Source: Ignavibacteriota bacterium
Lineage (GTDB): Bacteria; Bacteroidota; Ignavibacteria; UBA10030
Assembly (NCBI GenBank): GCA_003170475.1
Contig: PMZI01000013.1
Span: forward strand, 34,886-98,885
DNA: 64,000 bases
Direction of reading: 5' to 3'
The notes under the pieces are model-generated. The model was not told the DNA's origin. It saw only the letters and a program-made list of their open reading frames with translations, and did not search any database. The stretch's first letter is position 1. Each line of letters opens with the position of its first letter. The translations under genes were made by a program, and so were the position numbers. This document shows positions 28,678 through 47,875 of this stretch, piece by piece.

Positions 28678-29694
28678 TCAATAACTGATGCCCAGTGAAA
28701 TGTGATGCACGGCTCCAAAAATGCCAAACGCCTGGTACGCATAGTCTGCACGAACCGGGAGCCCGCCCGCGTTATAGCGTATGCCGATCCCGGCAGTCAA
28801 CCCTCGTTCGTCGTAGTTTGTGGCATATCCGGCGCGCGCGATGAAGGTGTCGAAGAAATGATATTCGGCCCCCACTTTGAGTTTCTCATTGAAATCGCGT
28901 GGATGTCGGGATTCAAAACTCAAGATGAAGACATCCTGAGGGTTATCCATGAAGAACCGCAACGGTTCGACCGTTGCCCCAAAACTCACGGCAAACGGCA
29001 TTGGAAACGGCTCGTTCTCGTAGGTGATTTCACGGGAGATATTCTGAAGGGTGGCTCCAAACCGAATGCCATTGTACAAGAAATCGTAGTAGGCTCCGAT
29101 ATCCATCGCAAGGCCGGTCTGGGCGTAATGACGAGTGCTGATGGCAAGATTCGCGTCTGTAAGGCTGCTGCCGGTCGGCGCGACCCATGCATCACCGAGA
29201 TCCTGGCTGACGTATTTGAGATGCACGCCGTACGAGAACCGGTCGGTCACCTTTTGCGAGAAGGCGATTCCGGCTGCATACGCCGAAGGGGAAAACGTCC
29301 CCGTCTCGACATATCCCTGCTCGTTCGCAGCGAGCCGGGTTCCGTAGAACGTGCCGTAGTCCATCGACAGGATACTCAGGCCCAGCACACCAAAGCTGCC
29401 GAGACGAATCGCCGCAGACGCCGCATTGTAGTTGATGTCGGCGATTCCCGTGGTGTGACTGACGCCGAGATCCGCCGTCGTCGTAATCCAGCCGAGCTGG
29501 CTGGGATTCCAGAAAATCGAACTTGAGTTCAGAGTTGTCGTCACGCCGATCGTCCCTCTTCCGACGACTTCGGCTGAGACAGGATTCTCCAGGAATCTGA
29601 AACCGACCTGCGCCTTCTTGACGATTTGACCTTCTGCGCTGAAAGCGAAGAAGAGAAGGAAGAAGGAGATCGCTGGAGCTATTCGCTTAATCAT
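28678..29694 (-). CDS. PorV/PorQ-family outer-membrane protein (cassette A)
   Basis: This 338-residue exported beta-barrel protein has a signal peptide (AISFFLLFFAFSAEGQ) and the PorV/PorQ pattern: FRFLENPVSAEVVGRGTIGV, the SSSIFWNPSQLG motif, and alternating beta strands to the C-terminal aromatic residue (GISY). PorV is the outer-membrane shuttle of the T9SS; PorQ has a related role (family knowledge). In this position it probably serves the neighbouring secreted protein and receptor. Good ribosome-binding site GGAGG. It is one of three PorV-like proteins in the window. Confidence 0.85.
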   Translation of the reverse strand: MIKRIAPAISFFLLFFAFSAEGQIVKKAQVGFRFLENPVSAEVVGRGTIGVTTTLNSSSIFWNPSQLGWITTTADLGVSHTTGIADINYNAASAAIRLGSFGVLGLSILSMDYGTFYGTRLAANEQGYVETGTFSPSAYAAGIAFSQKVTDRFSYGVHLKYVSQDLGDAWVAPTGSSLTDANLAISTRHYAQTGLAMDIGAYYDFLYNGIRFGATLQNISREITYENEPFPMPFAVSFGATVEPLRFFMDNPQDVFILSFESRHPRDFNEKLKVGAEYHFFDTFIARAGYATNYDERGLTAGIGIRYNAGGLPVRADYAYQAFGIFGAVHHISLGISY

Positions 29695-29782
29695 TGCATC
29701 CTCCGTAGGAAAAATCCGAAACTCAAAACATCATCCGTACCACGTGTCTTACAAGCCGACGAGGTATCTTTGGTAGCTGTCA

Positions 29783-31906
29783 TCAACGGACGAGGACGAA
29801 CTTGACGAACTGATTGTCCAGGTTTTCGCCATTCAAGCCTTGACACTCTGTCACGGCAAGAATATAGATGCCGCTTGTGACATACTGGTTGTCATCTGTG
29901 CGCTGATCCCATTCATGATCAGCGGTCCCAAAGTGTGAAATCGATTTGACGAGATCTCCCGTTTCCGTAAAAATCTTCAGTGTGCACCTGACAGGGAGAT
30001 TGACAAACAGAATCTTGTTCGGTGTCCCGGAGAATCCCAAACCGCCGGCTGCAACGGTTGCTGGATTTGGTACGACGCGAACCTTGCTGCTTTCACTAAG
30101 CCCTGGCTTGAACGATGTCGCAGGAAGCTGTGACCGCGTTGCGTAGAGTGAGCTTTCGAGCTTCACCCCCATGTCGAGACCGCTCGTGTTCTGTGTGCCA
30201 TTGTCAAGTGCCGTCACGGCGTAGTAATAGTCGACACCACGCTGTATGGATTTGTCAGTGTAGGAATTCTTGGTGCGGTCCTGGGTTTCGTACACGAGTT
30301 CCCATTGAGCACCGCTCCGCTGATCAAGGGGATCGCCGACATAGTACGCTCCCTTCTTCCGGTAGACACGCCATGAATACCAATCGTCGGTGCCGGTCTC
30401 GGGATCCTTGAAGTACCCCGGATCCGGATAAGACCATTGGACAACAATCTGGTCGGGCCCGGATGTGACGCTGATGTCGGGTGGCGGGGGAGGAGAGGGC
30501 ACCGCAAGGCCGTGGCTGATTCTGTCCCACGCCCAGTTTGCTCTGTCGAGCGTTCTCCAGAGAGAATCACGTCCTTTGAGAATCCATGCGTCCTTCTCTT
30601 GGTCGGTAATTTGTTTGTTGAACCAGGCGCGCCCGATGGAGTCCGCCGCCTTCCAGCCGATGCTGCCGGCTCCGACGGCGTACACGAACGTCACTGAATC
30701 ATACCGCCCGATTGCCCGGTTCTTCGTCAGTTGATACGGTCCGACAGTGATAAACCGCATCGGTCCCTTTTGCGGCACGGTCGAGAGACCGGCAGAGATT
30801 GCATCGAGAGGGAAGCGGCCGCGGCTGTCATCTCCGCGATAGGTTTGGAGCAGACCGACGTCTCTACGACCCCAGAGGTCGAGCGTGATGCTTGCGTGCG
30901 GCATAGCGTATGGCTGTTTTCGATCATCGGTAACATCGTTATAGGCCTTGCTGGCATAGAGCAGGGCATATCCCGGGATTTGCGGTGAGTTCAGGGATCC
31001 GGTTACGCGATCTGGGTCTCCCGAATCGTCTTTTGAACCATTCGCGAAGACCTGTGCCTGTTGATAGACGTTATCCCAATAGTATGCGATGTAGAGAGAA
31101 TCACGCGTCCGGTTCTTCACAAGTTCCGACGGTCGGACTATCCAACTGTCAAGGTCATCCTCACCTTCGAACGAAAAACCGCCAAATGTGCTGTATTCGC
31201 CCGCTTTCGAAGGGCCAAAACTGAAGGCAATCGGCCACCAAAACTTAATCGTTTGGTCTGGGAGCGTGTCTCTCGGACTCGTTGCCTCCAGTGGTCGCTT
31301 GACCTCTCCGGTGAATTTGTGCGTGGCTTTCCAAATGAAGCAGTCGGCGAATTTAGGATTGCTGAATGCGTAGACCTCCACGTGGCTACGGATTCCAAAC
31401 TGATTGCAGATATCTTCAAACTCGATCTTGATATCGGATTTCAACGTCGGATCGACGTTCCATCGATAGGGAGGATTAAGTTGCACTCCATCGACGATGA
31501 TGTTTGGCGGTCGATAACGACGCACTTCCATCGACCAGTCATTCGTTCCCGGATTGGTCAATGCTGAGCCGCGAGTGTACATCGGTTGGCGAGCGCCGAA
31601 CTCATCGACGATCCCATTCTCATCGAGGACCAGAGGATTGAGGATCTGATAGAGCATATTCGATTGCCATCGATCCTGAGGCCAGTAGAAGAGCTCGGTT
31701 TTCTGCGGATTCGCGCCGACAAGCATCCAGCTGAATTGCGACTGCAGGCCTCCTTCGCCGTTGAGCTTGTTCATGCTCATGTTGAAGTTGCCGACGTCGA
31801 TCATCATCGGAAACGGATCGTAGTTCCGCTGCTGGCCGATGAGGAGAGTTGTGGCGGCAAACAGAAGAAGAACTACGATCATGAAGGATTGAAGAATGCT
31901 TTTCAT
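29783..31906 (-). CDS. large secreted protein with FN3 domain and sorting-like C-terminus (cassette A)
   Basis: This 707-residue exported protein has a signal peptide (IVVLLLFAATTLLIGQ), a long unrecognised region rich in Tyr and Trp (about 25-480), a fibronectin-III domain (about 480-590, PDQIVVQWSYPDPG) and a C-terminal domain of about 90 residues (VRVVPNPAT..., LKIFTETGDLVKSISH, TSGIYILAV). This end resembles a T9SS sorting domain but lacks the NYPNPFN motif. The homologous gene at 42002-44566 is built the same way. It is probably on the cell surface with the TonB receptor. Start has AGGAG. Confidence 0.8.
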   Translation of the reverse strand: MKSILQSFMIVVLLLFAATTLLIGQQRNYDPFPMMIDVGNFNMSMNKLNGEGGLQSQFSWMLVGANPQKTELFYWPQDRWQSNMLYQILNPLVLDENGIVDEFGARQPMYTRGSALTNPGTNDWSMEVRRYRPPNIIVDGVQLNPPYRWNVDPTLKSDIKIEFEDICNQFGIRSHVEVYAFSNPKFADCFIWKATHKFTGEVKRPLEATSPRDTLPDQTIKFWWPIAFSFGPSKAGEYSTFGGFSFEGEDDLDSWIVRPSELVKNRTRDSLYIAYYWDNVYQQAQVFANGSKDDSGDPDRVTGSLNSPQIPGYALLYASKAYNDVTDDRKQPYAMPHASITLDLWGRRDVGLLQTYRGDDSRGRFPLDAISAGLSTVPQKGPMRFITVGPYQLTKNRAIGRYDSVTFVYAVGAGSIGWKAADSIGRAWFNKQITDQEKDAWILKGRDSLWRTLDRANWAWDRISHGLAVPSPPPPPDISVTSGPDQIVVQWSYPDPGYFKDPETGTDDWYSWRVYRKKGAYYVGDPLDQRSGAQWELVYETQDRTKNSYTDKSIQRGVDYYYAVTALDNGTQNTSGLDMGVKLESSLYATRSQLPATSFKPGLSESSKVRVVPNPATVAAGGLGFSGTPNKILFVNLPVRCTLKIFTETGDLVKSISHFGTADHEWDQRTDDNQYVTSGIYILAVTECQGLNGENLDNQFVKFVLVR

Positions 31907-31914
31907 AGTGACTC

Positions 31915-33258
31915 CTATCGTAAGACAATCATCGTTCGCATCACTGTGACACCTTCGCCGCTTAACCTGTACACATAGACTCCGCTTGGCAGACTCTCGG
32001 AAGAGTACGATACTTGGTAGCTTCCGGGCTGATGTTCCGTGTCGACAAGCTTCTCCACCTGACGCCCAAGAAGATCGTAGACGCGGAGTGAGTATCTGCC
32101 GGCATTCGTAACGACGTATCGGATATGGGTCTGGCCGTTGAAAGGATTCGGATAGTTTTGGAGAAGTTCAAAACTGCGCGGTACACTTTCCGTCCGTTGT
32201 TCCGGAATCCCGGTCGTAAGGCCCAGGCCGAGACTCACGGCGCGCAGAAGCGACTGCTGTCCGGTGTCCTGGCCGAGCGCCCAGATGATCGTGCCCCCAA
32301 TCCCCTGATCCTTCACATATTTCATCTTCTCGCCAATGGAGATGGAATCGTCGTAGCTGACAACCGAGGTTTGAGTGGAGTTGACGAGAAAAGGAACATG
32401 TGCCTTCGCATCAACTGAGCGGGTCCAGCCCTGTTGTGTGAGCGGGGCGATCGCGCTGTATGACTTCTGTGAGGCAGTGGTGCACGCACCGTAAACGGAA
32501 GTAGCGTTGAATTGCCATCCATAAAATGGAGTTCCGATCAGGAGTTTTGAGCTTGAAACGCCCTTGCTCCTGTAGTCTGCGACGGACGCTTGGATGGATC
32601 CCGTGGAGGAGGCGTCGTAACTCCCGTAGAGAGGAGAATTGGGACCTGCTTTCCATGGAGACCAGCTGCCGTAGAAATCATACGTCATCACGCCGACCCA
32701 ATCGAGGAGGCCGTTCATGATCGTCCAGTCATACGCGTTCCCGTCGGTGGACCCCCCCGCAATGCTGAGTGTCAGCGGCATGCCGGCGCTTGAAAGTGCA
32801 GTCCGCAGCGCTTGATAGAACAGTGTCGTGTTTGCCCGTCCTCCTGCCGTGGGATACTCCCAGTCGATATCCACACCGTCGTATTGATACGTGACACAGA
32901 AATCTCTGAGTGCATTGGCGAATCGTGTACGAGCTGCCGGATCTGCAGCAACCTGGGCGAAGCGCGGGGTGCGGGCAACGTCGTAGCCTCCCACAGAAAT
33001 GACAACGCCAACGCCATTAAGATGTGCCGCCTGGATCAGCTCGGGATAGAAGGTGAATCCGGTCAAGTCGAGCGTCCCATCGCTTTGTGGGAAAATGAAT
33101 GCATGGGCGATGTGTGTCAGGTTCCTGAATGGAATGGATGTGTATGGATATGACACTTTGCTCGTCCAGCTTGGATAGTAACCAACAACCAGCTTCGACT
33201 GCGCAAAAGCGAGCGAAGTGGTCAGAAGGAAGAGAAGTATGATCCGAGCCGTTTTCAT
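31915..33258 (-). CDS. T9SS-exported GH18 chitinase-like glycosidase
   Basis: This 447-residue protein has a signal peptide (IILLFLLTTSLAFAQ) and a family 18 glycoside hydrolase TIM barrel with the catalytic DGVDIDWEYP motif (Asp127, Asp130, Asp132, acid/base Glu134), SVGGYD and MTYDFYG. Family 18 enzymes cut chitin or related beta-1,4-GlcNAc chains using the substrate N-acetyl group. A T9SS type A C-terminus (about 360-447, LLQNYPNPFNGQT) shows it is secreted or surface-bound. It ends 8 bases before the FN3 gene, so they are probably cotranscribed. Confidence 0.93.
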   Translation of the reverse strand: MKTARIILLFLLTTSLAFAQSKLVVGYYPSWTSKVSYPYTSIPFRNLTHIAHAFIFPQSDGTLDLTGFTFYPELIQAAHLNGVGVVISVGGYDVARTPRFAQVAADPAARTRFANALRDFCVTYQYDGVDIDWEYPTAGGRANTTLFYQALRTALSSAGMPLTLSIAGGSTDGNAYDWTIMNGLLDWVGVMTYDFYGSWSPWKAGPNSPLYGSYDASSTGSIQASVADYRSKGVSSSKLLIGTPFYGWQFNATSVYGACTTASQKSYSAIAPLTQQGWTRSVDAKAHVPFLVNSTQTSVVSYDDSISIGEKMKYVKDQGIGGTIIWALGQDTGQQSLLRAVSLGLGLTTGIPEQRTESVPRSFELLQNYPNPFNGQTHIRYVVTNAGRYSLRVYDLLGRQVEKLVDTEHQPGSYQVSYSSESLPSGVYVYRLSGEGVTVMRTMIVLR

Positions 33259-33740: not shown

Positions 33741-36700
33741 TTAAAGATTCAGCCTCAATCCAACCAACACCTGCATGGGATTCAGGAATATCGGAGCGTC
33801 CCACCAGCCGACCTTGATATGGCCGTCATCAGATTTCCACTGCCCCCATTTATCGCTCCCGCCCTGGAAGGGGAATCGGAGCGATGCTTTGTAGTCATCA
33901 TATTGCGTTCTCAGCATATTGCCGGGAACGAGCCACTTGTTGTTGGTCACGTTCTTGACGGTAACGACGAATTCGAAATTCGTTGGACCTATGCTGAATG
34001 CTTTCGATCCCCGGAAATCGATATTCCAATAGTCCACAACATCGACGTAGATTCGGTTTTTGACGTCGGGTTCCTGCGGATTCCACAGGAGCCGACCGCC
34101 GTACCGCCACTCGAAAAAGAAGTTTAGATAGATGCCATTGAGTACTCTCATCCCCGCGATTTCCGGGCCGAAATCGTACGGAGTGTGGATATTGAGATTC
34201 ATGTTCGCTCGCGGAAGCGGATCCGTCGTTGTAAGATTCGCCGAACGGAGCTCGTCCTTCGCTTCCAGTCGATTCTCGTATACGCGGGCAAGTCCGGACT
34301 GTCCGGCGCTCTGCAGCATATAGTCCAACATTCCGTTGAACGTCACCCAGCTTCCGACCGGCCGCTCGAGGCGCAACTCGACACCGCGGACATCGCTATA
34401 AGCGTCCGGGAAGTATGCGGTGACCATATCGTCATGGTAGTAGTTGATGAACTGGCGGCTGAGCGGCTCGTTGCGGATGTCCTTGTAATACGCCGTGACG
34501 TTAAACAGGAAATCGTTGAAAAACATCTGTTCGTATCCGAATTCGTACGAAACCGTGCGGCCCATGGTGAGGTTTGGTGTCGGTACGGTCACTCCCGCCT
34601 GGTCGACGGTCATGTCGTACATGAATGAAATCGCCGGCCGCTGGTAGAAGTGACCATAGTTGAAATACAGCTTGCTGCTCTCCGTGATCGGGAAGGAGAC
34701 TCCGAGGCGGGGTGAGGCGTAGATCTGCACGCGGTTCTGTGTTCTGGGGAATCCAGGTGGGTTGTCCAGCATATCACGGAACAGCAACCAACGGTCGTAG
34801 CCACCCCATGTGCCACCGAGATTTTGATAGACACTGTTGTACAGCTTTCGATAATCCTCATCGACGGGGATCGATGCGTCGAAGCCCTCTTTCATCGGAT
34901 TGAGGTAATCGACTCGGACGCCTGCGTTCAGGATCATTCCTTCGAATTCAAGCTTGTCCTGCAGGTACAAGCCCATTTCCAACGGGGTGGCCGTGTAGTA
35001 CTGCCACAGGTCAGGAGTGTACGAAATTTGCGACTGCAGCCATGTCCCGGTGTAGACGAAGATTCGCTCGATCCGAGCGGAGAACCCGGCTTCGACCTGG
35101 TGATGCCGCCCGAGTTGAACCGTCAGGTCCCCTTTGAATTGGCCGACGAGCGAATTGGATGAATCGACCCGCTGCAAGCCTCCATAGAGGGCGAACATGT
35201 TTAATGCATCGTACCCGAAGTTCGTTGAGGCATTCGGTGAGCCGAGCGCAGGGCCATTGAGGAATACCTGTGGCGTGCCGTTGGTACCGATGAATGTAAT
35301 GGAATCGGCCGACGTCGGAGTAAAGGAGAATGGTCGCAACCGCTCATCAGTGTAGCCGACCTGGAGATCGAGAGTATAGAACGCGTTTGCGGAAAGCGTG
35401 TGAGTCAGTTTCGCTCCGCCGACAAAATATTGTTGATCATAGTATTGGAGCCGACTCTTGTTGAATATCTGCCAAATATTGTCGCCTGAGAGCAGACTTG
35501 CTTGTCTTGCCACAGAAGAGCCTGTCCCGTTGAGGAAGCCGAAACTGGAGGATTGGTCAACAAGTGCTCCTCCGTAGCTCGTCGTTTGGCCGCCGCTGGC
35601 AGTCTGCACCTTCGCGTAGAGTCCGTTGATCGAAAGCTTAGTATTGTCGCCGAGCTGCGAAGTGAGTTTGAGTTGAGCATTCCAATCGAGATAGTCATTT
35701 CGGGGACCGACGGGGAATGCCAATTGCGAGTCTTCGTATTTGAAACCGAGCAGGAATGTCGTTCGTCCGGCGTAGTCGCCGAAGATGGGGATCTCAGCAC
35801 CGGGCAAGGGGCCTGTGATGCTGCCTTCGAAGAACATGTCGGGTTTGTTAGCAAAATTGTATTGCGGGTGCTGGGCTTTCCAGAGCGCGAGTTTCTGATT
35901 CGAATCGAGGCCTGCCGGCCGTGTGAATCGGCTTGCCCAGCCACGGAAGGCGCGCAGCTCCACCGGTACCGTCGTATCGCCGGTTGGAACGCCGCTGAAG
36001 GCGTACGGGCCGGCAAACACTTTGTAGATCCACGAATCGTCACTCCAGGGATTGGTGCCGAAATACTTTTTCTGCGCCGGGGCAACATCGGCCTTGAGGG
36101 CGAGGGTGTAACGGTCGCGATGACCGTCTTTTGTCACAACATTGAGCAATCCTGATCGGATGCCGCCGTACTTTGCCTGAAAACCTCCGGTGAGGATCTG
36201 GATCTCTTCGATAGTTGTTGAGTTCAACGCCAGGTAGGAGTTTTCCGATCGGGGATCCTGGAGCGATATTCCGTCGATCCGGACATCGGTCTCTCGAATC
36301 GATCCGCCGCGGACGCTAAGTCCATTGCCGTCGGCGCCGCTGACCAGTTGCACGCCCTTCACCCGGCTGACGAATTCATCCAGTCTGTTGACAGGCATTT
36401 GTTCCAATCGGGAGGTCATGATGACTTCCTGAGTACCGGCGACATCGGGCTTGATGGTCTCGCGTCGTGCCGTCACGACGACCCCCTCAATCTCGACCGC
36501 CGAGGTTGTCATTTCAAAGTCGACGGTGATCGTCCGATCCAGGTCGACCCTGACACCCTTCTGGACGACTGGGCCGTATCCGATGACACTCGCTTTCACG
36601 ATGTACGTTCCGGGGGGAATGTTCAAGATGAAGTAGTATCCCGCCGGATCGGTGCCCGCACCCACCGGGTGATCGAAGGGGGCTTCTCTCCCGTCCGAAA

Positions 36701-36878
36701 GAATCAGATGCGTGATCATGATATTGGCCCCCGGTATCGGTTCGCGCGTTTCGCGATCGACCACGCGTCCGCTGATCTTGCCGTTCGCTCCAAGAGCTGT
36801 TGTTGCTGTGAGCACAACGATAAGCGTGAGTAGCGGGAGTACGGAGGAGAGTCTTTGGGCTGAGCTTAAGCGTTTCAT
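33741..36878 (-). CDS. TonB-dependent receptor (cassette A)
   Basis: This 1045-residue outer-membrane receptor has a signal peptide (LLTLIVVLTATTALGA), a carboxypeptidase-regulatory-like beta sandwich (about 35-120, ISGRVVDRETREPIPGANI), a plug domain (about 120-230, with DGISLQDPRSEN and AKYGGIRSGLLNVVTKDG) and a 22-strand-type barrel. This SusC/FecA-like layout imports large substrates with TonB energy. ATG at 36878 starts the signal peptide; the longer frame begins at 36935. No SusD gene is adjacent. It leads a group that contains a GH18 chitinase, an FN3 protein and a PorV-like protein, so chitin-derived oligosaccharide is a plausible substrate (inference). Confidence 0.92.
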   Translation of the reverse strand: MKRLSSAQRLSSVLPLLTLIVVLTATTALGANGKISGRVVDRETREPIPGANIMITHLILSDGREAPFDHPVGAGTDPAGYYFILNIPPGTYIVKASVIGYGPVVQKGVRVDLDRTITVDFEMTTSAVEIEGVVVTARRETIKPDVAGTQEVIMTSRLEQMPVNRLDEFVSRVKGVQLVSGADGNGLSVRGGSIRETDVRIDGISLQDPRSENSYLALNSTTIEEIQILTGGFQAKYGGIRSGLLNVVTKDGHRDRYTLALKADVAPAQKKYFGTNPWSDDSWIYKVFAGPYAFSGVPTGDTTVPVELRAFRGWASRFTRPAGLDSNQKLALWKAQHPQYNFANKPDMFFEGSITGPLPGAEIPIFGDYAGRTTFLLGFKYEDSQLAFPVGPRNDYLDWNAQLKLTSQLGDNTKLSINGLYAKVQTASGGQTTSYGGALVDQSSSFGFLNGTGSSVARQASLLSGDNIWQIFNKSRLQYYDQQYFVGGAKLTHTLSANAFYTLDLQVGYTDERLRPFSFTPTSADSITFIGTNGTPQVFLNGPALGSPNASTNFGYDALNMFALYGGLQRVDSSNSLVGQFKGDLTVQLGRHHQVEAGFSARIERIFVYTGTWLQSQISYTPDLWQYYTATPLEMGLYLQDKLEFEGMILNAGVRVDYLNPMKEGFDASIPVDEDYRKLYNSVYQNLGGTWGGYDRWLLFRDMLDNPPGFPRTQNRVQIYASPRLGVSFPITESSKLYFNYGHFYQRPAISFMYDMTVDQAGVTVPTPNLTMGRTVSYEFGYEQMFFNDFLFNVTAYYKDIRNEPLSRQFINYYHDDMVTAYFPDAYSDVRGVELRLERPVGSWVTFNGMLDYMLQSAGQSGLARVYENRLEAKDELRSANLTTTDPLPRANMNLNIHTPYDFGPEIAGMRVLNGIYLNFFFEWRYGGRLLWNPQEPDVKNRIYVDVVDYWNIDFRGSKAFSIGPTNFEFVVTVKNVTNNKWLVPGNMLRTQYDDYKASLRFPFQGGSDKWGQWKSDDGHIKVGWWDAPIFLNPMQVLVGLRLNL

Positions 36879-36980
36879 ACCAACCCCATGGGTGTTAGGA
36901 TGATTTGGTGCGTGGTCAACTTCGATCTTGTTCATTCAGAATTCGAAATTGGATATTGTTTGAGCGTCGACAATATCCCC

Positions 36981-37008
36981 CCCGCCCGACCGCCAGCGGT
37001 CAGGCGGG
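36981..37008. repeat. GC-rich hairpin upstream of the TonB receptor gene
   Basis: CCCGCC-C-GACCGC (36981-36993) pairs with GCGGTC-A-GGCGGG (36996-37008) with one mismatch and a 2-base loop. Related to the GCCCGCCT repeat at 16216. Position about 100 bases before the receptor start could influence its mRNA. Confidence 0.6.
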
Positions 37009-37014
37009 CGGGAA

Positions 37015-37978: not shown

Positions 37979-37986
37979 CAAATGTC

Positions 37987-38077: not shown

Positions 38078-39412
38078 CTACTTCAGCAACATCATCTTGT
38101 TCGTCAGTCTCATGCCGCCAGACGTCAGAACATAGACATATGTGCCGGAAGAAAGCTTCGTCGCATCGAACTTCACGCTATAGGCACCCGGAGCAAGCGT
38201 TTCGTTCACAAGCGTCGAAACCTCACGTCCCATAAGATCGTAGACCTTCAATGTCGTCGCGCCGGACCTGATGATCGAGAAGCTGATCTGCGTTGACGGG
38301 TTGAAGGGGTTCGGATAGTTCTGGGAAAGTGTATAGTCAGTCGGGACGACGCCCTTTACCGGCTCAACGTACGTTGTGCTCTTGGTATAAACCTGTACCC
38401 AAGAAGGCATCGTGCCGTTGAAACATGCCGTGTAGGCCGTGTCACCATTCGCCGTGAAGGCGATGCCGCGAGGCCGAGGATCTGTGCCATACATTGGGAT
38501 CATCGGATCGTACAGCGCAATGCTGTCAACGACCTTTTTCGTGGTGACGTTGAATCCATACCACCTGTAACCAACATACGGAGCATCTGGCATGCCGGAG
38601 GTGATGTTGCCTGAGGTTACCCAGAGGTATCCGGTCTTGGGCTGCCATGTCATTGATTCGATAGCCAACCCTTTCAAAACGGAATCCTTCTTCACATATG
38701 GTCCAAGAGATCCGTTATCAGAGTGGTAGATATACACTAATTTGGTATCGAATCCTGGGACATAAACATCATTACCATCGGATGACACAGCGATGCAGCG
38801 AGCGTAGCCAGCCGTAACATTTAACACGGTTCCAGCGGCGGTGAAGTCGGAATTCAGGATTCCCACTGCGTTTCCAGGAACCACGGGAGCGATGAACACT
38901 TCACCATACTTGTCGGACATCGGAGTGCCAAGCGAACTTGTATAACCTGGGATGGGGGCGAGGTTTCTCACAATCCCTTTTCCCGTCTTGTAATCGATCT
39001 TCCAGATTCTGGCGCTTGGCTTGATTGACAAAATGTTTCCTGTCTGTGCATCCGCCATCAAACCGTATCCACTGCCAGCGAGAGTATCAATCACCGCAAC
39101 TCCCTTTTCGTCCTTGCCCGAGAGAATCTTGATGGGCGAGGCAATGCCTGAATAGAGTGTCCCGTTGGCATTGTACACATTGATCACTCCCACTTTCACA
39201 GTTCCAACACTATCGACGCCAGAAGCATATGCGTACGATTGAATCCATATCTTGCCAGCCGGGTCAACGGCGATTCCGTTGTTGATGCCGCTGGGCCACA
39301 GCTTAATGGTGGTGGTATCGGGGAAATACTTCGCGAACTTCCATTGTGCGTTCGCGCCGACCGAAACGACCAGCACTAAACAAATTGTTAAGAAGAGTAG
39401 CTTTTTCATCAT
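38078..39412 (-). CDS. T9SS-exported beta-propeller protein
   Basis: This 444-residue exported protein has a signal peptide (LLFLTICLVLVVSVGANA), a beta-propeller-like body of YncE/SMP-30 style repeats (GINNGIAVDPAGKIWIQS, CIAVSSDGNDVYVPG, RGIAFTANGDTAYTA), and a T9SS type A C-terminus (about 360-444, LSQNYPNPFNPST). It is predicted to be surface-attached or secreted. Start codon preceded by AGGAGG. It is the last gene of cassette B, ending at the terminator at 37944. Confidence 0.85.
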   Translation of the reverse strand: MMKKLLFLTICLVLVVSVGANAQWKFAKYFPDTTTIKLWPSGINNGIAVDPAGKIWIQSYAYASGVDSVGTVKVGVINVYNANGTLYSGIASPIKILSGKDEKGVAVIDTLAGSGYGLMADAQTGNILSIKPSARIWKIDYKTGKGIVRNLAPIPGYTSSLGTPMSDKYGEVFIAPVVPGNAVGILNSDFTAAGTVLNVTAGYARCIAVSSDGNDVYVPGFDTKLVYIYHSDNGSLGPYVKKDSVLKGLAIESMTWQPKTGYLWVTSGNITSGMPDAPYVGYRWYGFNVTTKKVVDSIALYDPMIPMYGTDPRPRGIAFTANGDTAYTACFNGTMPSWVQVYTKSTTYVEPVKGVVPTDYTLSQNYPNPFNPSTQISFSIIRSGATTLKVYDLMGREVSTLVNETLAPGAYSVKFDATKLSSGTYVYVLTSGGMRLTNKMMLLK

Positions 39413-39560: not shown

Positions 39561-40769
39561 CTACAGTGTGCTGCCGTAATACGGAGCACTTTTCTTTCCC
39601 CGAATGGTAAACTTCATCAGGATCCCGCTGGTTGAAGTGGCGTACAGATCGTCAGCTGCTCCCCATGCAAATGCTAAGAAAGAGGGACTGTAGATGCTCT
39701 TGTATGCAGAGAACGGAGCGCTAAACGACTTGTTGGGATTGACAACAAGAACCCCATCTGGAGAGTCTGTCCCAATATACAAAATTCCGTCAGAAGAAAA
39801 AGTAATTGCGAGCGGTAAATTGTTCGGGTATGCGGCCCCAAAATCGAAGTAAATTTCAGGGGTTCCCAAGCCGCTTGTTGATATCTGAGCGCGCCAGACC
39901 TTCTCGCCGGCATCCGTTCTGGCGGCAAAATACAGGTATCCACTATAGACCCTCAGCGAATGAACCGCTCCTACAAACGGGAACGGTGTGACCGTCTTGT
40001 CCGATGCGATCCGATAAATATTGGAGTTATTTCCGCCGATCCAGAGGTTTCCGGTTTGGTCAAAATCGATATCGGAAGCGAAAGTGCCTGTCGGCAATGC
40101 CACAAAGAGTGCTGCCGAACTGCCACCGCCCTTTGCAAACGAATAGACGGCTCTGACGTTTCTGGCACCATAGATGAGTCCGCCGGGTCCCATCTTCAGG
40201 CTTGTCCAGGCTGCCACCCCTGCTGTTGCGGGGGCGTAAGCTGATCGCGTGCCGACAGGGACGAATTTCAGGATGCCCGCCTCGGTCCCACTAGACGAGA
40301 AACCGGAATAAAGGTTACCGGCTGCATCCGTGGTGACTGCGGACGCCAATTCGGTGGCGATCAGACCGCCGAATGTGACCACTCCGGCCTTCAGCTTGTA
40401 CAGAGACGTGTTGCTGAATTTGTCTGCGCCGGAGACTGCGACTCTGATGGCAACACTGTCCAAAGCGACCAAAGGCGCCAGAAGTGTGATCTGGCTGGAT
40501 GTCACTTTGAGAAGTGTCGCCGGCGTCGTGTTGAAGTAGACGGTGTTCTCTGCCAGAACGGAAGAGAAGTTCGTCCCTGCGATCACAATCGTGTCCATCC
40601 CGGCAAACGCGGTTCCGGCGGGCGAAACGCTGGTGATCGTCGGCGCGGGATTGCTCGCGGCATTCGGATCATAGAGGCTTCCCGATTTCGGATTGTCGCA
40701 TCCGCTTACGAAGAAGATGACGAGTGCGACGAAACTGAGGAAGGCTATTGTTCGTGGAAAAGTACGCAT
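39561..40769 (-). CDS. TIG/IPT-domain propeller lipoprotein
   Basis: This 402-residue lipoprotein has a lipobox FVSGC (Cys about 24), an IPT/TIG immunoglobulin-like domain (about 42-130, PTITSVSPAGTAFAGMDTIVIAGTNFS) and a beta-propeller-like C-terminal region (TTDAAGNLYSG, DFDQTGNLWIGG, TFSSDGILYIG). Likely anchored in the outer membrane, surface or periplasm side. It sits between the PorV-like gene and the T9SS propeller gene and may help hold the cassette B complex (inference). Confidence 0.8.
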   Translation of the reverse strand: MRTFPRTIAFLSFVALVIFFVSGCDNPKSGSLYDPNAASNPAPTITSVSPAGTAFAGMDTIVIAGTNFSSVLAENTVYFNTTPATLLKVTSSQITLLAPLVALDSVAIRVAVSGADKFSNTSLYKLKAGVVTFGGLIATELASAVTTDAAGNLYSGFSSSGTEAGILKFVPVGTRSAYAPATAGVAAWTSLKMGPGGLIYGARNVRAVYSFAKGGGSSAALFVALPTGTFASDIDFDQTGNLWIGGNNSNIYRIASDKTVTPFPFVGAVHSLRVYSGYLYFAARTDAGEKVWRAQISTSGLGTPEIYFDFGAAYPNNLPLAITFSSDGILYIGTDSPDGVLVVNPNKSFSAPFSAYKSIYSPSFLAFAWGAADDLYATSTSGILMKFTIRGKKSAPYYGSTL

Positions 40770-40795
40770 TGGAATACCTGCTAGAAATTGTCGAT

Positions 40796-40905
40796 TCGTG
40801 ACTGGTTAATTGGTGAATCGTTAATTTGTGATTAGTTAATTTGTGACAAGTTAATTGGTGACCAGTCAACTAATTAACCAATTAACAAATTAACCAGTTA
40901 ACTAA
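40796..40905. repeat. TTAATTNGTGA tandem and inverted repeat cluster
   Basis: About four near-copies of GTTAATTTGTGA/GTTAATTGGTGA lie in a row, followed by inverted versions (TTAACCAATTAAC, AAATTAACCAG), so that the 110 bases fold into a long imperfect hairpin. It lies between the PorV-like and TIG lipoprotein genes of cassette B. Confidence 0.7.
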
Positions 40906-40907
40906 AC

Positions 40908-41969: not shown

Positions 41970-42001
41970 GAGGTGTGCCTATCAAGTGTGTGGTGTGATT
42001 A

Positions 42002-44566
42002 TTATCGGACGATGACGAGCTTCTTGATCGTCTTCTCACCAGTGTCTTTGTTTTCAAATACAACGATGTAGATACCGCTCACGACGACCTGGTTTGCCGA
42101 CGTGATGGAATTCCAGTATGCATCACCGGTACCATCATTGTGAACTATCTGCTTTATGAGCTCGCCGAGCTCGGTGTAGATGCTGATCAAGCAGTTGCCC
42201 GGGATATTGAAGAACGCAATCTTGTCGGGTTCACTAGGGAATCTGAGTGAGTTCTCGCTGGATGAAATGACGTATGGGTTGGGTGCGATGCGTATCGCGT
42301 CACTCGGTTTCGAGTACGGGTTTACTATATCTACCGGCACATTTTGCCGCTGGCCATTCAGAAACATTTGGAGCACGCTCTGTGCCTGGACATCGTACGC
42401 CTGCAGTTTGATGGCCACCGATGCCACTCCCGTTGTATCGAAAACCATTTTGACAAATTTTTTGCTTCCAACTGCTGCATTGTGAAAATCCAACGGCACT
42501 GCGGTGCTGGGAGCAGCGATAACCGTCCTTTCCCCATTTCGCTTCAACAGTACAACGGTCACGTTGGTGATGACGAAGCCCGTGGTTTTTCCGCCAAGGT
42601 TGTCGACGTAGTCAAACTCTATGTTGTTGGTATCCGGGGCTGACTTGATCGCTGACACCCCGGCCGTTACGAGTGCTTCTTGCGGTGGCGGTCCGGCGGG
42701 ACGCTTCAACGTCGCGGGATCGTACGTGCGAGTGTAGAACAAATTGCTCTCAAGTCCCTGAGGCGCCGCGGGTGTTCGCGTAGCGGCATCGCCGGCAAAC
42801 GAGTTTCCGAACGATGTGATATAATAGTAGTACGAGACTCCCCGGATGGCAGAGACGTCGTTGAAGGTGTATGTCTTGGTTGCATCATACTTCACATTGG
42901 GATCGCTGGGTTTCGTCCCGCCGCACTGATAGACCAGGTGATAGGCGCTGTCTGCCCGGCCGGTCGCACGATATACCTTATATCCAGCGAATCCATTTGC
43001 GGTTTCATTCTTGTTCGGATCCCAGGTCAAGGCGATTCGGTCGCCGCCGCCACGTACGTTGAATGTTGCAGGTGGAAATGGCGGTTTGGGGATGTTGAAG
43101 CCGGAATTGAAGTTGGCGACCGCCCGTCTCATCGTTTCAAACAATCTCAGTCGACCATTAAGCACGGAATCGTTCTTAGCCTGAGTGGTGATCGTTCCAC
43201 GTTTGTACTGCAAGCCGACGCTGACGCCTTCGTCAAATGTCAGACCGTTCACGCCTTCCGCCCAAACGATCCTCACGCTTTGGTTCGGGGCGATCGTATA
43301 GGGACCGTAGCCCGATCCATGCGACCATCCGCCCGGAGCGCCGTCGCCGATATTGCCCATCACCGCCTGCTGGTCAAATTTCCCGTCAGGAACAACGAGC
43401 CATGCCTGGCGCGGAGCGTGTCCTTCTGTCATCTTCGAATACTGGTCGTTCATTTGAGATTGATTGAACTGCTTGTCGGCGTTTGACGTCATCGGAGCGT
43501 CAGAAGCCAGAAAACTTGTGGTCGATGGCTGATTGGGGTCGTTCGAGAAGTCTGTGGCAGACTTCGAGGCATAGATCGGGCCGTTCCCGGCGATCTGTGG
43601 ACCGGCGATCCGCCAGTTGGTGTCTGCAGCTTGGATGTAGGTTGACACTCCCGAGATACCTGTGTTGAAAATTGGCTCACCGATATTGTCAAAGGTGTTC
43701 ACGCTTTGCTGGCTCCCTGACCCTGCAGCCGGTTTGGCGGCTGCATTGTGAAAGCCCAGCCATGTGAACAAGAGCTTGACATCATTCTCGGACGACGGGA
43801 TCAAACTGTTGTTCTTGTCGGGTGCAAATCCCCGGGCATCGTTCATGGAGTTGATTCCCCATCGCGCGGAGTTGTTGACCTCATATCCCGGTCCGGGTCC
43901 TCCCGGAGCATAACGGAACTGCCAGTAGAACATCACTCCCGTCAGTGTCTTTGCGGGGAGGGGGGGAGTGAGATCAGGATTACCGGTGTTGGTGAACGTG
44001 TAATCCATGATATGGTAATTGTCGTGATACTGCTGGCTGAACGCGTAGATTCTGCGCTCAATCGTCAAGCCGAGAACCGTCGTCGTTTTGTTGTAGATCA
44101 TCCGGTCCGACTTCAGCGTATCAGTCACGGCTTTGATATCTTCCGGGTTGGCGAACGAAGGGCTGCCGTCCACGAAGACCCGCGGCGGGTCGAACTGGGC
44201 GTACACATCAAACGTCTTCGGAAAGAATTCATTGTCGCCAAGCCACCGTGGTCCGACGACGATGACCTTGGGATTCCAGGTAGTGCCCGTGTTGTCTGTA
44301 AAATTTGTGGCGCCGATCCAGAATCCTTTTGCAGCCTGACCGTCGGTACGGTTCACCAATGCCGGCCAACGCAAACCATACTGCTGTTCGAGAACGTTCC
44401 CCTCTTCCGCTTCTGACCCTTTTTCTGAATACCAATTATGAAGAGAACCGACCTGAAGCCACTTGGTCTGCCCCTGAGCCTGAGCCTGGTCGCTCATGAC
44501 CAGCAGGAGGAAGGCTGTCGCAGTGAGGAAGAAGCACATCGTTGTTATTTTCATACGCTTGTTCAT
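42002..44566 (-). CDS. large secreted protein with FN3 domain and sorting-like C-terminus (cassette B)
   Basis: This 854-residue exported protein has a signal peptide (FFLTATAFLLLVMSDQAQA), an unrecognised aromatic-rich body (about 30-500), a fibronectin-III-like domain (about 505-610, DRIALTWDPNKNE), a beta-rich linker, and a C-terminal domain (APNPYVISS..., ISIYTELGELIKQIVH, VSGIYIVVFENKD) like that of the 29783-31906 protein. It resembles the T9SS sorting fold with a different consensus. Homologous in layout, not closely in sequence, to the cassette A protein. Start has GAGGATCC. Confidence 0.82.
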   Translation of the reverse strand: MNKRMKITTMCFFLTATAFLLLVMSDQAQAQGQTKWLQVGSLHNWYSEKGSEAEEGNVLEQQYGLRWPALVNRTDGQAAKGFWIGATNFTDNTGTTWNPKVIVVGPRWLGDNEFFPKTFDVYAQFDPPRVFVDGSPSFANPEDIKAVTDTLKSDRMIYNKTTTVLGLTIERRIYAFSQQYHDNYHIMDYTFTNTGNPDLTPPLPAKTLTGVMFYWQFRYAPGGPGPGYEVNNSARWGINSMNDARGFAPDKNNSLIPSSENDVKLLFTWLGFHNAAAKPAAGSGSQQSVNTFDNIGEPIFNTGISGVSTYIQAADTNWRIAGPQIAGNGPIYASKSATDFSNDPNQPSTTSFLASDAPMTSNADKQFNQSQMNDQYSKMTEGHAPRQAWLVVPDGKFDQQAVMGNIGDGAPGGWSHGSGYGPYTIAPNQSVRIVWAEGVNGLTFDEGVSVGLQYKRGTITTQAKNDSVLNGRLRLFETMRRAVANFNSGFNIPKPPFPPATFNVRGGGDRIALTWDPNKNETANGFAGYKVYRATGRADSAYHLVYQCGGTKPSDPNVKYDATKTYTFNDVSAIRGVSYYYYITSFGNSFAGDAATRTPAAPQGLESNLFYTRTYDPATLKRPAGPPPQEALVTAGVSAIKSAPDTNNIEFDYVDNLGGKTTGFVITNVTVVLLKRNGERTVIAAPSTAVPLDFHNAAVGSKKFVKMVFDTTGVASVAIKLQAYDVQAQSVLQMFLNGQRQNVPVDIVNPYSKPSDAIRIAPNPYVISSSENSLRFPSEPDKIAFFNIPGNCLISIYTELGELIKQIVHNDGTGDAYWNSITSANQVVVSGIYIVVFENKDTGEKTIKKLVIVR

Positions 44567-44639
44567 AGGATCCTCATTATACTGATACGCACGTCAAGAA
44601 TTTTCGTGTCTCTTCAATTCCCACTGTATTTGCCACAAG

Positions 44640-44728
44640 GGCACTAAGGCGCGAAGAAAAATATCTTAATACAATTGCGTTTAACAGAGCTTTGTGACTT
44701 CGTGTCTTGGTGGCAAGGTCCTTCATCT
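44640..44728. repeat. cytosine/adenine-rich CACGAAG-type intergenic repeat
   Basis: The gap between the receptor and FN3 genes holds GGCACTAAGGCGCGAAG and, inverted, CTTCGTGTCTTGGTGGCAAGG. A related stretch occurs near 51636-51725. It looks like a dispersed repeat. Confidence 0.5.
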
Positions 44729-47700
44729 CTAGAAAACGTCGAATGACATTCTTAAACCGAAATAAAAATCACGCGGGTTCAGGAAATTCCACCAATCCTG
44801 TGTCGGCATGTGGATATAGGCTTTGTCTTTCAGTACTCTGTCCACTTCAGCCTGGTCCGCTTGCTGCCACGCACCGTTTACCCATCGAAGGTATGTCTGA
44901 CTCGTGTATTCGTAATAGATCGGCGAGGCATACTTGGTAGCAACCTCAGTACGGTTCTTCATGAAGACCATGGGCTGATACGCAACGCCGGCTGCACGAT
45001 AGTCACCCGGAGTGTCGTTTCCTGGGATGTCTCCGTAGTACTGATTGAACGAATCCGGCAAGTGCAGGGATTTCATGTATCGGTCGTAGTCCGTTCCGTC
45101 CACAAATCCATAGGTCGTCAACTGCTTGAGATTCAGAACGTTGTTGACATCCATGAAGAGCATGAGATTGACCCGGTCAAACAGGTTGAAGGTCTTGCTC
45201 AGTCGGAGGTCCAGGCCGTACTGGTCTTTCCACTGGAGGTTGTTCGAAACTCCGGGGAATGATCCACCGCCGACATACGTAAAGTAGAAGCCGGCGCTAT
45301 AGTTGGCCAGAATGCTGAGGCGCCAGTCTGCGAGAGGATTGATGCCGGCCATCTTCGGACCGAAGTTTTCCGGCGTGAACACGTCGATGTTCGCTCGGGC
45401 ATACGGCTGGGGAATTGGCTTTGTCTGAACCGGGTTGGTGCGCTCGTAGTTTCGCTGGTCGACGGCGTTCTGATAGTTGACGTCCCATCCGAAGTGTCCG
45501 TAGGTGCTCACCATGTACGTGTAGTTCACGAAGCCCTGAATCCAGTTTCCGCGGTTCTTCCTGAGCGTGATTTCGAAGCCTCGGATATCTTCGTAGAGAT
45601 TGGCTGTGGAGACCGTGTAATCCGGCGTGTTATTGTAGCCAATGTACTCGAATTGGATTCGCTCATTGCTGATATCTTTGTAGTAGGCTGCAATGCGCAG
45701 GAGGAACTGGTCCGCAATATTGTTTTCAAATCCCAACTCGTACGCTACGGTTTTCTCGAGCGGGAGATTGGGGTCCGCCAGGCGGACGATATTCGATGTG
45801 GCGGTTTCATGCCTGACCAGGAACTGATTCTCCGGTGTTGGAATCGAACGGAAGTGCCCGTAATTGAAATAAAGTTTTGCGTTCTCCGTAATGGGGAAAG
45901 CCACGTTCACCCGGGGCATCACGTTGGTGATGTACTTGGTTGGCTGCGTCTGCAGCGATGTGTCGATTCCGAACGACTGCGCGCCGCGGAAGAGCTGCGT
46001 GTAGGGATCGTAGACATACCATTCTCCGCCGGCGTGTGACATGGCAATCCGGACGCCAGCGTCAACGATCATGCCTTCGAATTCCAGTTTGTCCTTTACA
46101 TACGCTTCCATTCGGATGGGGTAGGTTTCCCATTGCGACAGTGATCTGCCTGTGGCAAGTACAAGGTCAACGGAACCATAGTTGACTGCGTTGTCCGTGT
46201 AGCCGAACTCAACACCACCTTTGAATTCGTTGAACCGGTCCAGCTGGCTGGTCAGGTCAAACTTCGCGGTATAGGTGGTAATCTTGCTGCTGTCACGTGC
46301 ATTGCTCATGCCGACTCCCATGCGCATGCCGTCGATGCCCGTGAGGGATGTAACGCCGGGATTCGGGAAGAACCCGTAGGGTGCTTCGTCTAGAAGGTAG
46401 CTGTTCCCGAACAAGTTGACCCGCGATGTGTCGCGCGTCCTGCCGGGGTTAGTGCTGTACTGAGAAGAGAACCTCTGGGCCAGCACTTCGTAAAACGTTG
46501 TCGGGCTGAGAACATGGGAAAGTTTGACGCCGATGATCTGGCGGTTGACGCTATTGGGGGCCCAGTAATCTGTCGTGAATAACCGTGTGTCAATGTAGCT
46601 CACGCGGTTCATAACGTTGCCTTCACTTGCCGCGGAACCAAAGCTCCCATAGACACCCGTCTGGTTGATATCGACGGATTCATTTCGTCCGACGGTTCCT
46701 TCAACCATTAACTTCATGGTCTTTGTAAGGTCGGAAGTGACTTTCAGCGTCGTGCTGTAGTCGCTGTAGCCGTCGCGTGAAAGCGGAACAGCGAACTCGG
46801 CGTTCTGGCTTCGGAATGACGCGTAGAACCGCAGGTTCCCCAGATCTTCGCCTCCGGGAACAGGCCCGCCAAGGCCGAAGTCGATGTCGTAATCAGGCTT
46901 TGTAATGTCAAAATTCTTCCTGTGCTGCCACTTCCATACTTCCTGCGCCGCCGCAGGCGTCAAGTCGTTTGTCGGATCGGCGTCTTTGAGCAAAGAAGCC
47001 GAGACGGCGTTCCAGCCGCCGAAGTTCGCGTACTGTTCCTGCATCCATGGATCCCAGGCTCCGCTGTTGGTCCCTGTCATTGCCACGGCAGGATCCAGGA
47101 ACGGGCGCACCCAGTATGAATTCGCATCGTTGGGAGAAATTCCAAAGTACTTCTTTGTCGGTGGCGAGATGCGCGCCTGGAATCCGACCGAGTACTTTTT
47201 CGTATTTCCTTCCTTTGTAACGACGTTGATAACGCCAGAACGGATGTTGCCATATTCCGCACTGAAACCGCCGGTCTGAATCTGGAATTCCTGAACTGCG
47301 AGAAGGCTGATTGCGGTGTAAGGCTGATTATTGCGTTCATCCTTCATCGTCAGGCCGTCAGCCATGAAAGCGGTCTGTTCAGAACCGCCGCCACGGACCT
47401 GGAGTCCCTGCACGCCAGCCTCGAGTCCGATGATGCTGGAAACCTGGCTTACCGGCAGATTCTCGACTTCCTTTGCCGTGATGTTTGCGCGACTTGCCGC
47501 CACGTCTCGTTCAACGATCGGTCGGCTGGCGATGATGACCACTTCCTGTGCCTGGATGGCCTGTTCGCCGAGTCTGAAGTCAAGGGTGGTCGTTTGGTTG
47601 ATGTTCACCTTGACATTCGACTGTGTCGAAGGGGTATAGCCGACGATTGAGGCGCGAACCCTGTATGTTCCCGGAGGAACACTCAGGATCGTGAAGAAAC

Positions 47701-47875
47701 CCTCGACGTCAGAAGAGGCTCCCTGTTGAGTGCCTTCAATGGTGACGTTTGCGCCAACGAGAGCTTCGCCCGTCCGTGCATCGACTACTTTTCCAGCTAT
47801 CTTGCCTGTTTGTGCGAAGGCTGTTGTCGCTGAAAAAAGGAGTACAAGGCAAAAGAGGTATCTAACGGACTTCAT
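44729..47875 (-). CDS. TonB-dependent receptor (cassette B)
   Basis: This 1048-residue receptor has a signal peptide (LFCLVLLFSATTAFAQ), a carboxypeptidase-regulatory-like domain (about 24-105, IAGKVVDARTGEALVGANV), a plug (about 110-215, RGGGSEQTAFMADGLTMKDE, AEYGNIRSGVINVVTKEG) and a barrel ending in Phe. Same layout as the cassette A receptor, and no SusD is adjacent. Ribosome-binding site AGGAGA. It opens the cassette B operon and is predicted to import an unidentified large substrate. Confidence 0.93.
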   Translation of the reverse strand: MKSVRYLFCLVLLFSATTAFAQTGKIAGKVVDARTGEALVGANVTIEGTQQGASSDVEGFFTILSVPPGTYRVRASIVGYTPSTQSNVKVNINQTTTLDFRLGEQAIQAQEVVIIASRPIVERDVAASRANITAKEVENLPVSQVSSIIGLEAGVQGLQVRGGGSEQTAFMADGLTMKDERNNQPYTAISLLAVQEFQIQTGGFSAEYGNIRSGVINVVTKEGNTKKYSVGFQARISPPTKKYFGISPNDANSYWVRPFLDPAVAMTGTNSGAWDPWMQEQYANFGGWNAVSASLLKDADPTNDLTPAAAQEVWKWQHRKNFDITKPDYDIDFGLGGPVPGGEDLGNLRFYASFRSQNAEFAVPLSRDGYSDYSTTLKVTSDLTKTMKLMVEGTVGRNESVDINQTGVYGSFGSAASEGNVMNRVSYIDTRLFTTDYWAPNSVNRQIIGVKLSHVLSPTTFYEVLAQRFSSQYSTNPGRTRDTSRVNLFGNSYLLDEAPYGFFPNPGVTSLTGIDGMRMGVGMSNARDSSKITTYTAKFDLTSQLDRFNEFKGGVEFGYTDNAVNYGSVDLVLATGRSLSQWETYPIRMEAYVKDKLEFEGMIVDAGVRIAMSHAGGEWYVYDPYTQLFRGAQSFGIDTSLQTQPTKYITNVMPRVNVAFPITENAKLYFNYGHFRSIPTPENQFLVRHETATSNIVRLADPNLPLEKTVAYELGFENNIADQFLLRIAAYYKDISNERIQFEYIGYNNTPDYTVSTANLYEDIRGFEITLRKNRGNWIQGFVNYTYMVSTYGHFGWDVNYQNAVDQRNYERTNPVQTKPIPQPYARANIDVFTPENFGPKMAGINPLADWRLSILANYSAGFYFTYVGGGSFPGVSNNLQWKDQYGLDLRLSKTFNLFDRVNLMLFMDVNNVLNLKQLTTYGFVDGTDYDRYMKSLHLPDSFNQYYGDIPGNDTPGDYRAAGVAYQPMVFMKNRTEVATKYASPIYYEYTSQTYLRWVNGAWQQADQAEVDRVLKDKAYIHMPTQDWWNFLNPRDFYFGLRMSFDVF

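Follow-up and report, generated by a model that had tools for sequence, protein, structure and literature searches.

A receptor–FN3 protein–PorV-family barrel cassette in Ignavibacteria and their relatives: a candidate SusCD-like importer with a type IX-exported lid

A stretch of 64,000 nucleotides from the genome of an Ignavibacteriota bacterium (the window; part of contig C39, PMZI01000013.1, of a 4.08 Mb genome that is 96% complete) encodes two sets of three genes on the minus strand, each consisting of a TonB-dependent receptor (T), an exported protein with an FN3 domain (F) and a barrel of the PorV/PorQ family (P). All six open reading frames (ORFs) lie where a reading of the DNA alone, made before the present analysis (the sequence-only reading), had placed them (Table 1). 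We propose, with a rough probability of 0.58, that this cassette forms a SusCD-like importer: its lid would leave the cell by the type IX secretion system and be held by a PorV-like barrel of its own. The proposal builds on gene content, gene order, co-inheritance, the predicted folds of single proteins, the types of C-terminal tail and the absence of SusD (PF07980), all of which were established directly.

A conserved cassette with an inherited pair at its core

When named contigs were scanned with four aligned F proteins as the query, the best 80 of 111 relatives gave 78 loci in assemblies of Ignavibacteria, Melioribacteraceae, Neomarinimicrobiota, Calditrichota, KSB1, the FCB (Fibrobacteres–Chlorobi–Bacteroidetes) group and WOR-3, 23 of them labelled Marinimicrobia or Neomarinimicrobiota. 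These loci contain 121 F ORFs, eight without an upstream neighbour, and T lies directly upstream on the same strand of 108 of the 113 that can be tested, at a median gap of 15 bases. The sequence-only reading had staked its proposal on an order shared with related genomes and on cassettes free of SusD; the three-gene order is indeed kept across other phyla, rather than being unique to this genome, and no SusD was found in either cassette.

The same arrangement is seen in a 247-genome sample of the phylum. As many of the 119 matching genomes match the C-terminal part of F alone, a long F match was defined by a best E-value ≤1e-80, and 53 of the 247 genomes have one. T lies directly upstream of all 49 F ORFs of at least 450 residues in the F regions analyzed (48 of 50 F places, from 44 genomes in 16 families, the samples within a family not being independent), and P is adjacent in 47 of these 48 regions (at L152, L166 and L223, where overlap filtering had dropped it from the gene maps, the P ORF is directly behind F); in the 48th (L171), the contig ends 254 bases behind F. 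An ORF of ~1050–1250 residues that matches solely the C-terminal part of F (profile ~578–691) recurs as well, including in genomes that lack a long F match (examples of such matches are G003:C1:1276107-1276451 and G085:C14:374503-374865).

F proteins, assigned by distance, fall into two types (I and II) that often occur in tandem. Among 100 T–F pairs with T longer than 700 residues, own genome included, 96 were typed, four own-genome F being left out as outliers. In all 96 typed pairs, the T most closely related to a given T, its own locus set aside, accompanies an F of the same type, and the distances of F and T correlate with r 0.90, a value to which species kinship contributes. At the 28 named loci with both types, the type I receptor is in 26 cases nearer to type I receptors of other loci than to the receptor in tandem with it, and the type II receptor is nearer to those of type II in all 28. 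These sequence comparisons indicate that T and F are an inherited pair. Chance neighbourhood is contradicted by the T–F adjacency, by this co-inheritance and by the recurrence of neighbouring genes in F regions as compared with control regions (see below).

The distances of F and P also correlate (r 0.70, 49 pairs). In type I, 37 of 40 pairs have P no more than two genes behind F. In type II, P is behind F in 12 of 56 pairs and directly before T in 27 (both in 5), so that 34 of the 56 T–F units have P on one side or the other; all these counts are lower bounds because overlap filtering can drop P. In cassettes from Marinimicrobia and Calditrichota, an extra small protein, mostly with a lipobox, is encoded between F and P (clusters c2 and c3; for example L068 10261-10950, L070 11826-12857 and L115 5435-6031), and the two that were scanned have no Pfam match.

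The cassette is multiplied in the genome from which the window comes. Plug domains (PF07715) mark 30 receptor places there, and a census of 16 stretches around matches, outside which further F may exist, gave at least 10 F ORFs, seven of them with P directly behind: those of both window cassettes and those at L041, L043, L045, L045/L046 and L047. At L042, F lies further upstream of a T–P pair, and at L052 the contig ends behind F of a T–F pair. That pair (257-5047 of L052, contig C57) resembles one at L051 (1-4788, contig C41), both being of type II with T 79% and F 73% identical; both loci run off contig ends inside T, perhaps at assembly breaks. Six more distant F of this genome match the F profile overall with E-values from 2e-34 to 5e-22, most strongly in the tail and weakly in parts of the head and the FN3 domain.

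The F protein: a glycan-enzyme-like head and a PorZ-like tail

F1 and F2, which are 27% identical, match no Pfam family over its cut-off, and the FN3 domain was recovered with the family profile (3mpc, E 1.5e-5). The AlphaFold2 model of F2, computed from a 107-sequence alignment, has a mean predicted local distance difference test score (pLDDT) of 82.5 and a predicted template modelling score of 0.79. It consists of a β-rich head extending to about residue 440, helices at 444–487, the FN3 domain at ~500–590, a low-confidence segment at ~628–752 and a C-terminal domain at ~755–854. Structural comparison with VIA-align relates the head to glycoside hydrolase (GH) family GH15, GH94 and GH116 chains at Z-scores of about 18, with dextran dextrinase (9ju0; Z 18.4, root-mean-square deviation (rmsd) 3.5 over 260 aligned residues) and cellodextrin phosphorylase (8xi1; Z 18.1, rmsd 3.8, 273 aligned) followed by chitobiose phosphorylase (1v7v; Z 15.9, rmsd 3.6, 250 aligned) and galactose mutarotase (4bze; Z 13.4, rmsd 4.4, 218 aligned). 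Most of these matches fall on the N-terminal part of the enzymes, which we take to be a non-catalytic β-supersandwich domain that precedes the catalytic helical barrel; the F2 model has no counterpart of this barrel. The predicted head thus resembles the N-terminal part of GH94/GH116/GH65 enzymes (glycan phosphorylases) and not SusD. No SusD chain is among the 50 best VIA-align matches listed for F2, which by itself excludes nothing.

The C-terminal domain resembles that of PorZ. The NCBIfam PorZ model matches residues 781–854 of F2 (E 9.6e-7), and Foldseek aligned F2 with PorZ (5m11) over 106 columns (E 9.5e-6), an output that does not give the position in F2. Against the whole-protein PorZ model (cut-off 260 bits), the window F proteins score 27.6 and 20.7 bits, in the C-terminal domain alone. 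Of the usual sorting tails, type A (TIGR04183, cut-off 23 bits) reaches 16.8 bits in F2 and gives no match in F1 at E ≤0.1, and type B is found over its cut-off in neither. The exported FN3 protein with a sorting-like C-terminus that the sequence-only reading described can therefore be specified further, with the FN3 domain identified by the family profile and the C-terminal domain PorZ-like. When 52 of 107 F were scanned together with 31 secreted control proteins (29 named-locus c1 proteins, described below, and two window proteins) at E ≤0.01, the PorZ model matched 26 of 52 F and 2 of 31 controls, and the type A model 11 of 52 F and 30 of 31 controls. As a group, the F tails thus differ from those of the cargo encoded at the same loci.

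A lipobox-like motif within the first 45 residues is present in 8 of 120 F, as compared with 37 of 59 of the c0 proteins encoded in the same cassettes; within the first 60 and 75 residues the counts are 16 and 17 of 120 for F, and 41 and 42 of 59 for c0. Since most F lack such a motif, another anchor would be needed.

These data bear directly on another explanation, in which F is plain type IX cargo encoded in an operon for glycan use: P would help to export it, after which it would be cut and either anchored or released, and T would work alone, with F as its neighbour but not its subunit. SprA and PorU are present, other members of the operon carry plain type A tails, and 11 of the 52 F still match the type A model, if weakly; the group-distinct tail of F speaks against this explanation, as do the tight adjacency and co-inheritance of T and F, and we regard it as unlikely.

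The barrel and the type IX secretion system

The PorV/PorQ-like barrel recognized in each cassette by the sequence-only reading is clear in both: P1 and P2 exceed the family cut-off of 90 bits (NF033709; Table 1). Neither is PorV or PorQ itself by the available models, as both score far under the cut-offs of the equivalog models for PorV, PorQ and PorV2 (78.3 and 95.3 bits for PorV proper, NF033710, cut-off 250). The genome has 18 PorV-family places, 13 of them over the NF033709 cut-off, and 8 of these 13 belong to F-bearing sets. Its strongest PorV-family member, the core PorV, adjoins PorU (974.9 bits), and with SprA (1102.8 bits) also encoded, the genome is scored as having type IX secretion. 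SprA is found in every one of the 53 genomes that have a long F match, but also in 190 of the 247 overall.

PorZ and PorU are described as retaining their C-terminal tails, bound to PorQ and PorV, in a review that also puts forward the hypothesis that cognate PorV-like barrels shield tails from cleavage (PMC10202324). Accordingly, the suggestion that PorV serves F as a dedicated exporter holds in part: a PorV-family barrel does stand beside F, and, given the PorZ-like C-terminal domain of F and the presence of the general SprA/PorU route, P may serve to dock F and not solely to export it.

PorV barrels are structurally similar to FadL. This similarity, together with the 13 family members over the cut-off, would agree with P itself acting as importer, in the manner of a FadL channel for hydrophobic compounds, with T and F contributing accessory receptor parts. 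We consider this very improbable, as P matches the PorV/PorQ family of the type IX system and adjoins a protein with a PorZ-like tail, and the linked enzymes are directed at glycans.

The receptor and the absence of SusD

Both T proteins have a carboxypeptidase-like regulatory domain, as the sequence-only reading had it, and a Plug domain (PF07715), both over the cut-offs. An alignment of receptors covered 73 of 84 candidate T. The AlphaFold2 model of T2 (pLDDT 88.1) adopts the fold of TonB-dependent transporters, with Z-scores of 30–38 to such transporters among the 50 best matches listed. The scores for PirA (Z 38.3, 513 residues aligned) and BtuB (34.9, 524 aligned) exceed that for the levan-utilisome SusC (30.2, 608 aligned), so T is not especially SusC-like. 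The SusC/RagA model (TIGR04056, cut-off 368.25 bits) gives 40.4 and 73 bits for the two proteins.

The cassette might alternatively be an adhesion or surface-coat module without nutrient uptake, F being a structural or attachment protein and T–P its assembly site. FN3 domains are common in adhesins, and T matches the S-layer glycoprotein model, at 36 and 51.7 bits against a cut-off of 1400. The Plug domain and transporter fold of T, the glycan-enzyme fold of the F head and the linkage to the hydrolase GHL10 (see below) argue otherwise, making this explanation improbable.

In the rest of the genome, PF07980 likewise found no SusD at E ≤1, with a Bacteroides control positive and other SusD-type Pfam families not searched. 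The idea that the FN3 protein replaces SusD fares differently at different levels. It is favoured by the lack of PF07980 matches in cassettes and genome and by the inherited T–F pair; as a strict replacement it is contradicted, as 30 of the 53 genomes with a long F match have both SusD and F. In the class to which the window belongs (61 genomes), a long F match is present in 24, SusD in 12 and both in 5; among the other 186 genomes, the match is present in 29, of which 25 have SusD. Because of this coexistence, "replacement" holds for the cassette and not for the phylum, and the best reading is of a parallel solution beside SusC/SusD.

A model of the cassette and the evidence against it

In the proposed model, T would be a TonB-dependent outer-membrane importer and F its surface partner. 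F would be made with a Sec signal, leave through the type IX translocon SprA, and be held at the surface by docking of its PorZ-like C-terminal domain on the co-encoded P, as PorZ docks on PorQ. Its head, with the fold of glycan-acting enzymes, would bind glycan above T and pass it to T, as SusD does for SusC; c0, c1 and GHL10 or other hydrolases would act at the surface, and the imported sugars would be used inside the cell. In this scheme, we infer the surface location, the export through SprA, the T–F and F–P contacts, the tethering, the uptake and the substrate.

Several results weigh against the model. No P is seen with 22 of the 56 type II T–F pairs, 7 of which have both flanks in view, and in the same genome as the window the T–F pair at L051 is without P. 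The PorZ-model matches of F are weak, far below the whole-protein cut-off, and half of the scanned F have none. T, as judged from the predicted structure, is no nearer to SusC than to other TonB transporters.

The cassette shares features with several known systems. Like SusC/SusD (RagA/RagB), it combines a TonB receptor that has a carboxypeptidase-like N-terminal domain with a partner presumably located at the surface, in several paralogous pairs per genome with glycan enzymes as neighbours; it differs in that the partner is not SusD and as a rule lacks a lipobox, and in that the set includes a PorV-like barrel. BtuB–BtuG and XusA–XusB also pair a TonB transporter with a surface partner other than SusD, but those partners are surface lipoproteins, and the corresponding titles and abstract openings mention neither a type IX tail nor a PorV barrel. 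As in PorZ–PorQ and PorU–PorV, where a secreted protein keeps its C-terminal domain on a PorV-family barrel (PMC10202324), F has a tail matching PorZ, but the match to PorZ is confined to that tail and F adjoins a TonB receptor. Finally, the cargo genes of type B C-terminal domain substrates usually cluster with their own PorV-like barrel, PorP/SprF (PMC10202324), whereas neither F1 nor F2 reaches the cut-off for a type B tail and their barrel is of the PorV/PorQ family. Searches of a collection of open literature showed no paper that describes the T–F–P cassette in its title or abstract opening.

Neighbouring genes and the candidate substrate

The neighbourhoods of F were compared with 32 hand-placed control regions in 27 of the 44 F-region genomes; one control (L199) itself holds a T–F–P cassette, which accounts for the only F among the controls, for one of their two T and for one of their three P. 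Two genes of cassette 2 prove to be recurrent members: c0 in 41 of 48 F regions and none of the 32 controls (and as a cluster in 58 loci), and c1 in 35 of 48 and none of 32. GHL10 is present in 27 of 48 F regions, spread over 11 of the 16 genome families, compared with 2 of 32 controls, and in 14 of the 23 named loci that have 6 kb behind the last F. Its place differs between families, some having it behind c1 and others immediately before T, so the link survives rearrangement. Among the genes suggestive of a substrate, GHL10 is the only enzyme that is broadly linked. E. coli DigH is, we assume, a GHL10 protein. DigH has been reported as a denuded-glycan hydrolase of peptidoglycan (PMC12288456), and Fidelibacter multiformis, a cultured member of the former Marinimicrobia, is reported to live on exogenous muropeptides (PMC11652737).

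Table 1. Genes of the two cassettes and of their surroundings in the window
Feature	Positions	Strand	Evidence
AMIN/Amidase_3 protein directly upstream of T2	48625..50232	-	PF01520 163.9 bits
T2, TonB-dependent receptor, carboxypeptidase-like N-terminal domain, 1048 aa	44729..47875	-	PF13715/PF13620/PF07715 over cut-off
F2, exported protein, 854 aa: β head predicted to resemble glycan enzymes, then FN3, a linker of low confidence and a PorZ-like C-terminal domain	42002..44566	-	
P2, PorV/PorQ-family barrel, 353 aa	40908..41969	-	NF033709 206 bits
c0, probable lipoprotein with an IPT/TIG domain and a propeller repeat; recurs with the cassette	39561..40769	-	PF01833 48.6 bits
c1, propeller protein, type A sorting tail, recurrent member	38078..39412	-	TIGR04183 38.7 bits, weak NHL
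T1, TonB-dependent receptor, cassette 1	33741..36878	-	PF07715 40 bits, PF13620 64.6 bits
GH18 chitinase-like protein, type A sorting tail, between T1 and F1	31915..33258	-	PF00704 209.7 bits, TIGR04183 41.4 bits
F1, divergent F, cassette 1, 707 aa	29783..31906	-	F profile positions 8-712, 453.3 bits (G000:C39:64671-66788)
P1, PorV/PorQ-family barrel, 338 aa	28678..29694	-	NF033709 170 bits
NagX/HGSNAT-like membrane acetyltransferase	22801..23901	-	PF07786 37.5 bits, over cut-off; NF046061 150 bits, below cut-off 480
NamZ-type exo-beta-N-acetylmuramidase	21593..23188	-	PF07075 268 bits, PF20732 152 bits
Sodium:solute symporter	20037..21527	-	PF00474 107.5 bits
PD40 propeller protein, cluster c10	18826..19746	-	PF07676
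Amidase_3 (N-acetylmuramoyl-L-alanine amidase), type A sorting tail	16298..18829	-	PF01520 65 bits, Por_Secre_tail 40 bits

In the window, the GH18 gene between T1 and F1 is an addition to the members of cassette 1 listed by the sequence-only reading. The ORF of T1 opens at 36935, and the internal ATG 57 bases further in, at 36878, gives, by our reading, a more signal-like N-terminus. Past P1, a run of genes continues on the same strand with gaps of at most 290 bases, in the order GNAT, PIG-L, GNAT, F5/8 type C-domain protein, NagX/HGSNAT-like protein, NamZ, sodium:solute symporter, PD40 protein and Amidase_3 with a type A tail. The two GNAT acetyltransferases flank the PIG-L deacetylase directly behind P1 (25929-28681, minus strand). 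The true start of NamZ is probably well inside its ORF, the first part of which overlaps the NagX-like gene. The PD40 protein and the tailed amidase are paired in the window, at L060 and at L074.

From this gene content, glycans of N-acetylglucosamine and N-acetylmuramic acid (peptidoglycan or chitin fragments) would be our leading guess for the substrate of the window cassettes. The guess is favoured by NamZ, the NagX-like protein and the tailed amidase standing in one minus-strand run with cassette 1; the low recurrence of these and other neighbours elsewhere weighs against it. The NagX-like gene occurs in 11 of the 48 F regions, drawn from three families, nine of them from a single one, and in 1 of the 32 controls. 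For NamZ the counts are 4 of 48 (one family) and none of 32, and it lies within 15 kb of F in at least 5 of 46 genomes, again all of one family. The mere presence of NamZ was rejected as evidence on the substrate, as the gene is near universal (238 of 247 genomes). Neither GH18 (0 of 48 F regions, 0 of 32 controls) nor the symporter (1 of 48, and 0 of 32 controls) recurs, and PIG-L (0 of 48, 1 of 32) resembles the bacillithiol enzyme BshB1 (108.9 bits, below the cut-off of 182.5). The AMIN amidase, absent from all 48 F regions and present in 1 of 32 controls, lies beside the cassette at L056, L057, L058 and L105; it is possibly a housekeeping gene, and its linkage to the cassette is not general. 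The tailed amidase (3 of 48), an epimerase-like protein (3 of 48) and NlpC (1 of 48) are each absent from the 32 controls. Among single loci, c1 of L063 is followed by a row of four genes, encoding GHL10, an NlpC/P60 peptidase, an L-Ala-D/L-Glu epimerase-like protein and a NagX-like protein, and L060 has NagA (over the cut-off) and a NagX-like protein at least ~1.3 kb before T, with GHL10 and Amidase_3 behind.

Elsewhere in the window, a different receptor pair is encoded on the plus strand, a TonB receptor (53918-56218) overlapping the start of a DUF4249 protein (56215-57201), and a 676-residue ORF (5864-7894, plus strand) has a weak PorV-family match of 34.3 bits, below the cut-off. Scans of the window for Rfam families and tRNAs found nothing.

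Implications

A broader form of the proposal is that the cassette represents a class of TonB importers found across the FCB superphylum, in which a type IX-exported, PorV-docked glycan-binding lid takes the place of SusD, and that its conserved T–F–P–c0–c1–GHL10 form is the outer-membrane route for scavenging the peptidoglycan of other bacteria. In this form it would provide muropeptide-fed bacteria such as Fidelibacter multiformis with their outer-membrane step. We put this forward tentatively and regard it as doubtful in its full extent. SusC/SusD is the accepted standard importer of large molecules in Bacteroidota and their relatives. If the proposal is correct, a second, independent solution would exist across the FCB superphylum, one that couples type IX secretion to TonB-dependent uptake, and many PorV paralogues would gain a role. 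It would also open a direct approach to the uptake of glycans or cell-wall debris by uncultured FCB bacteria.

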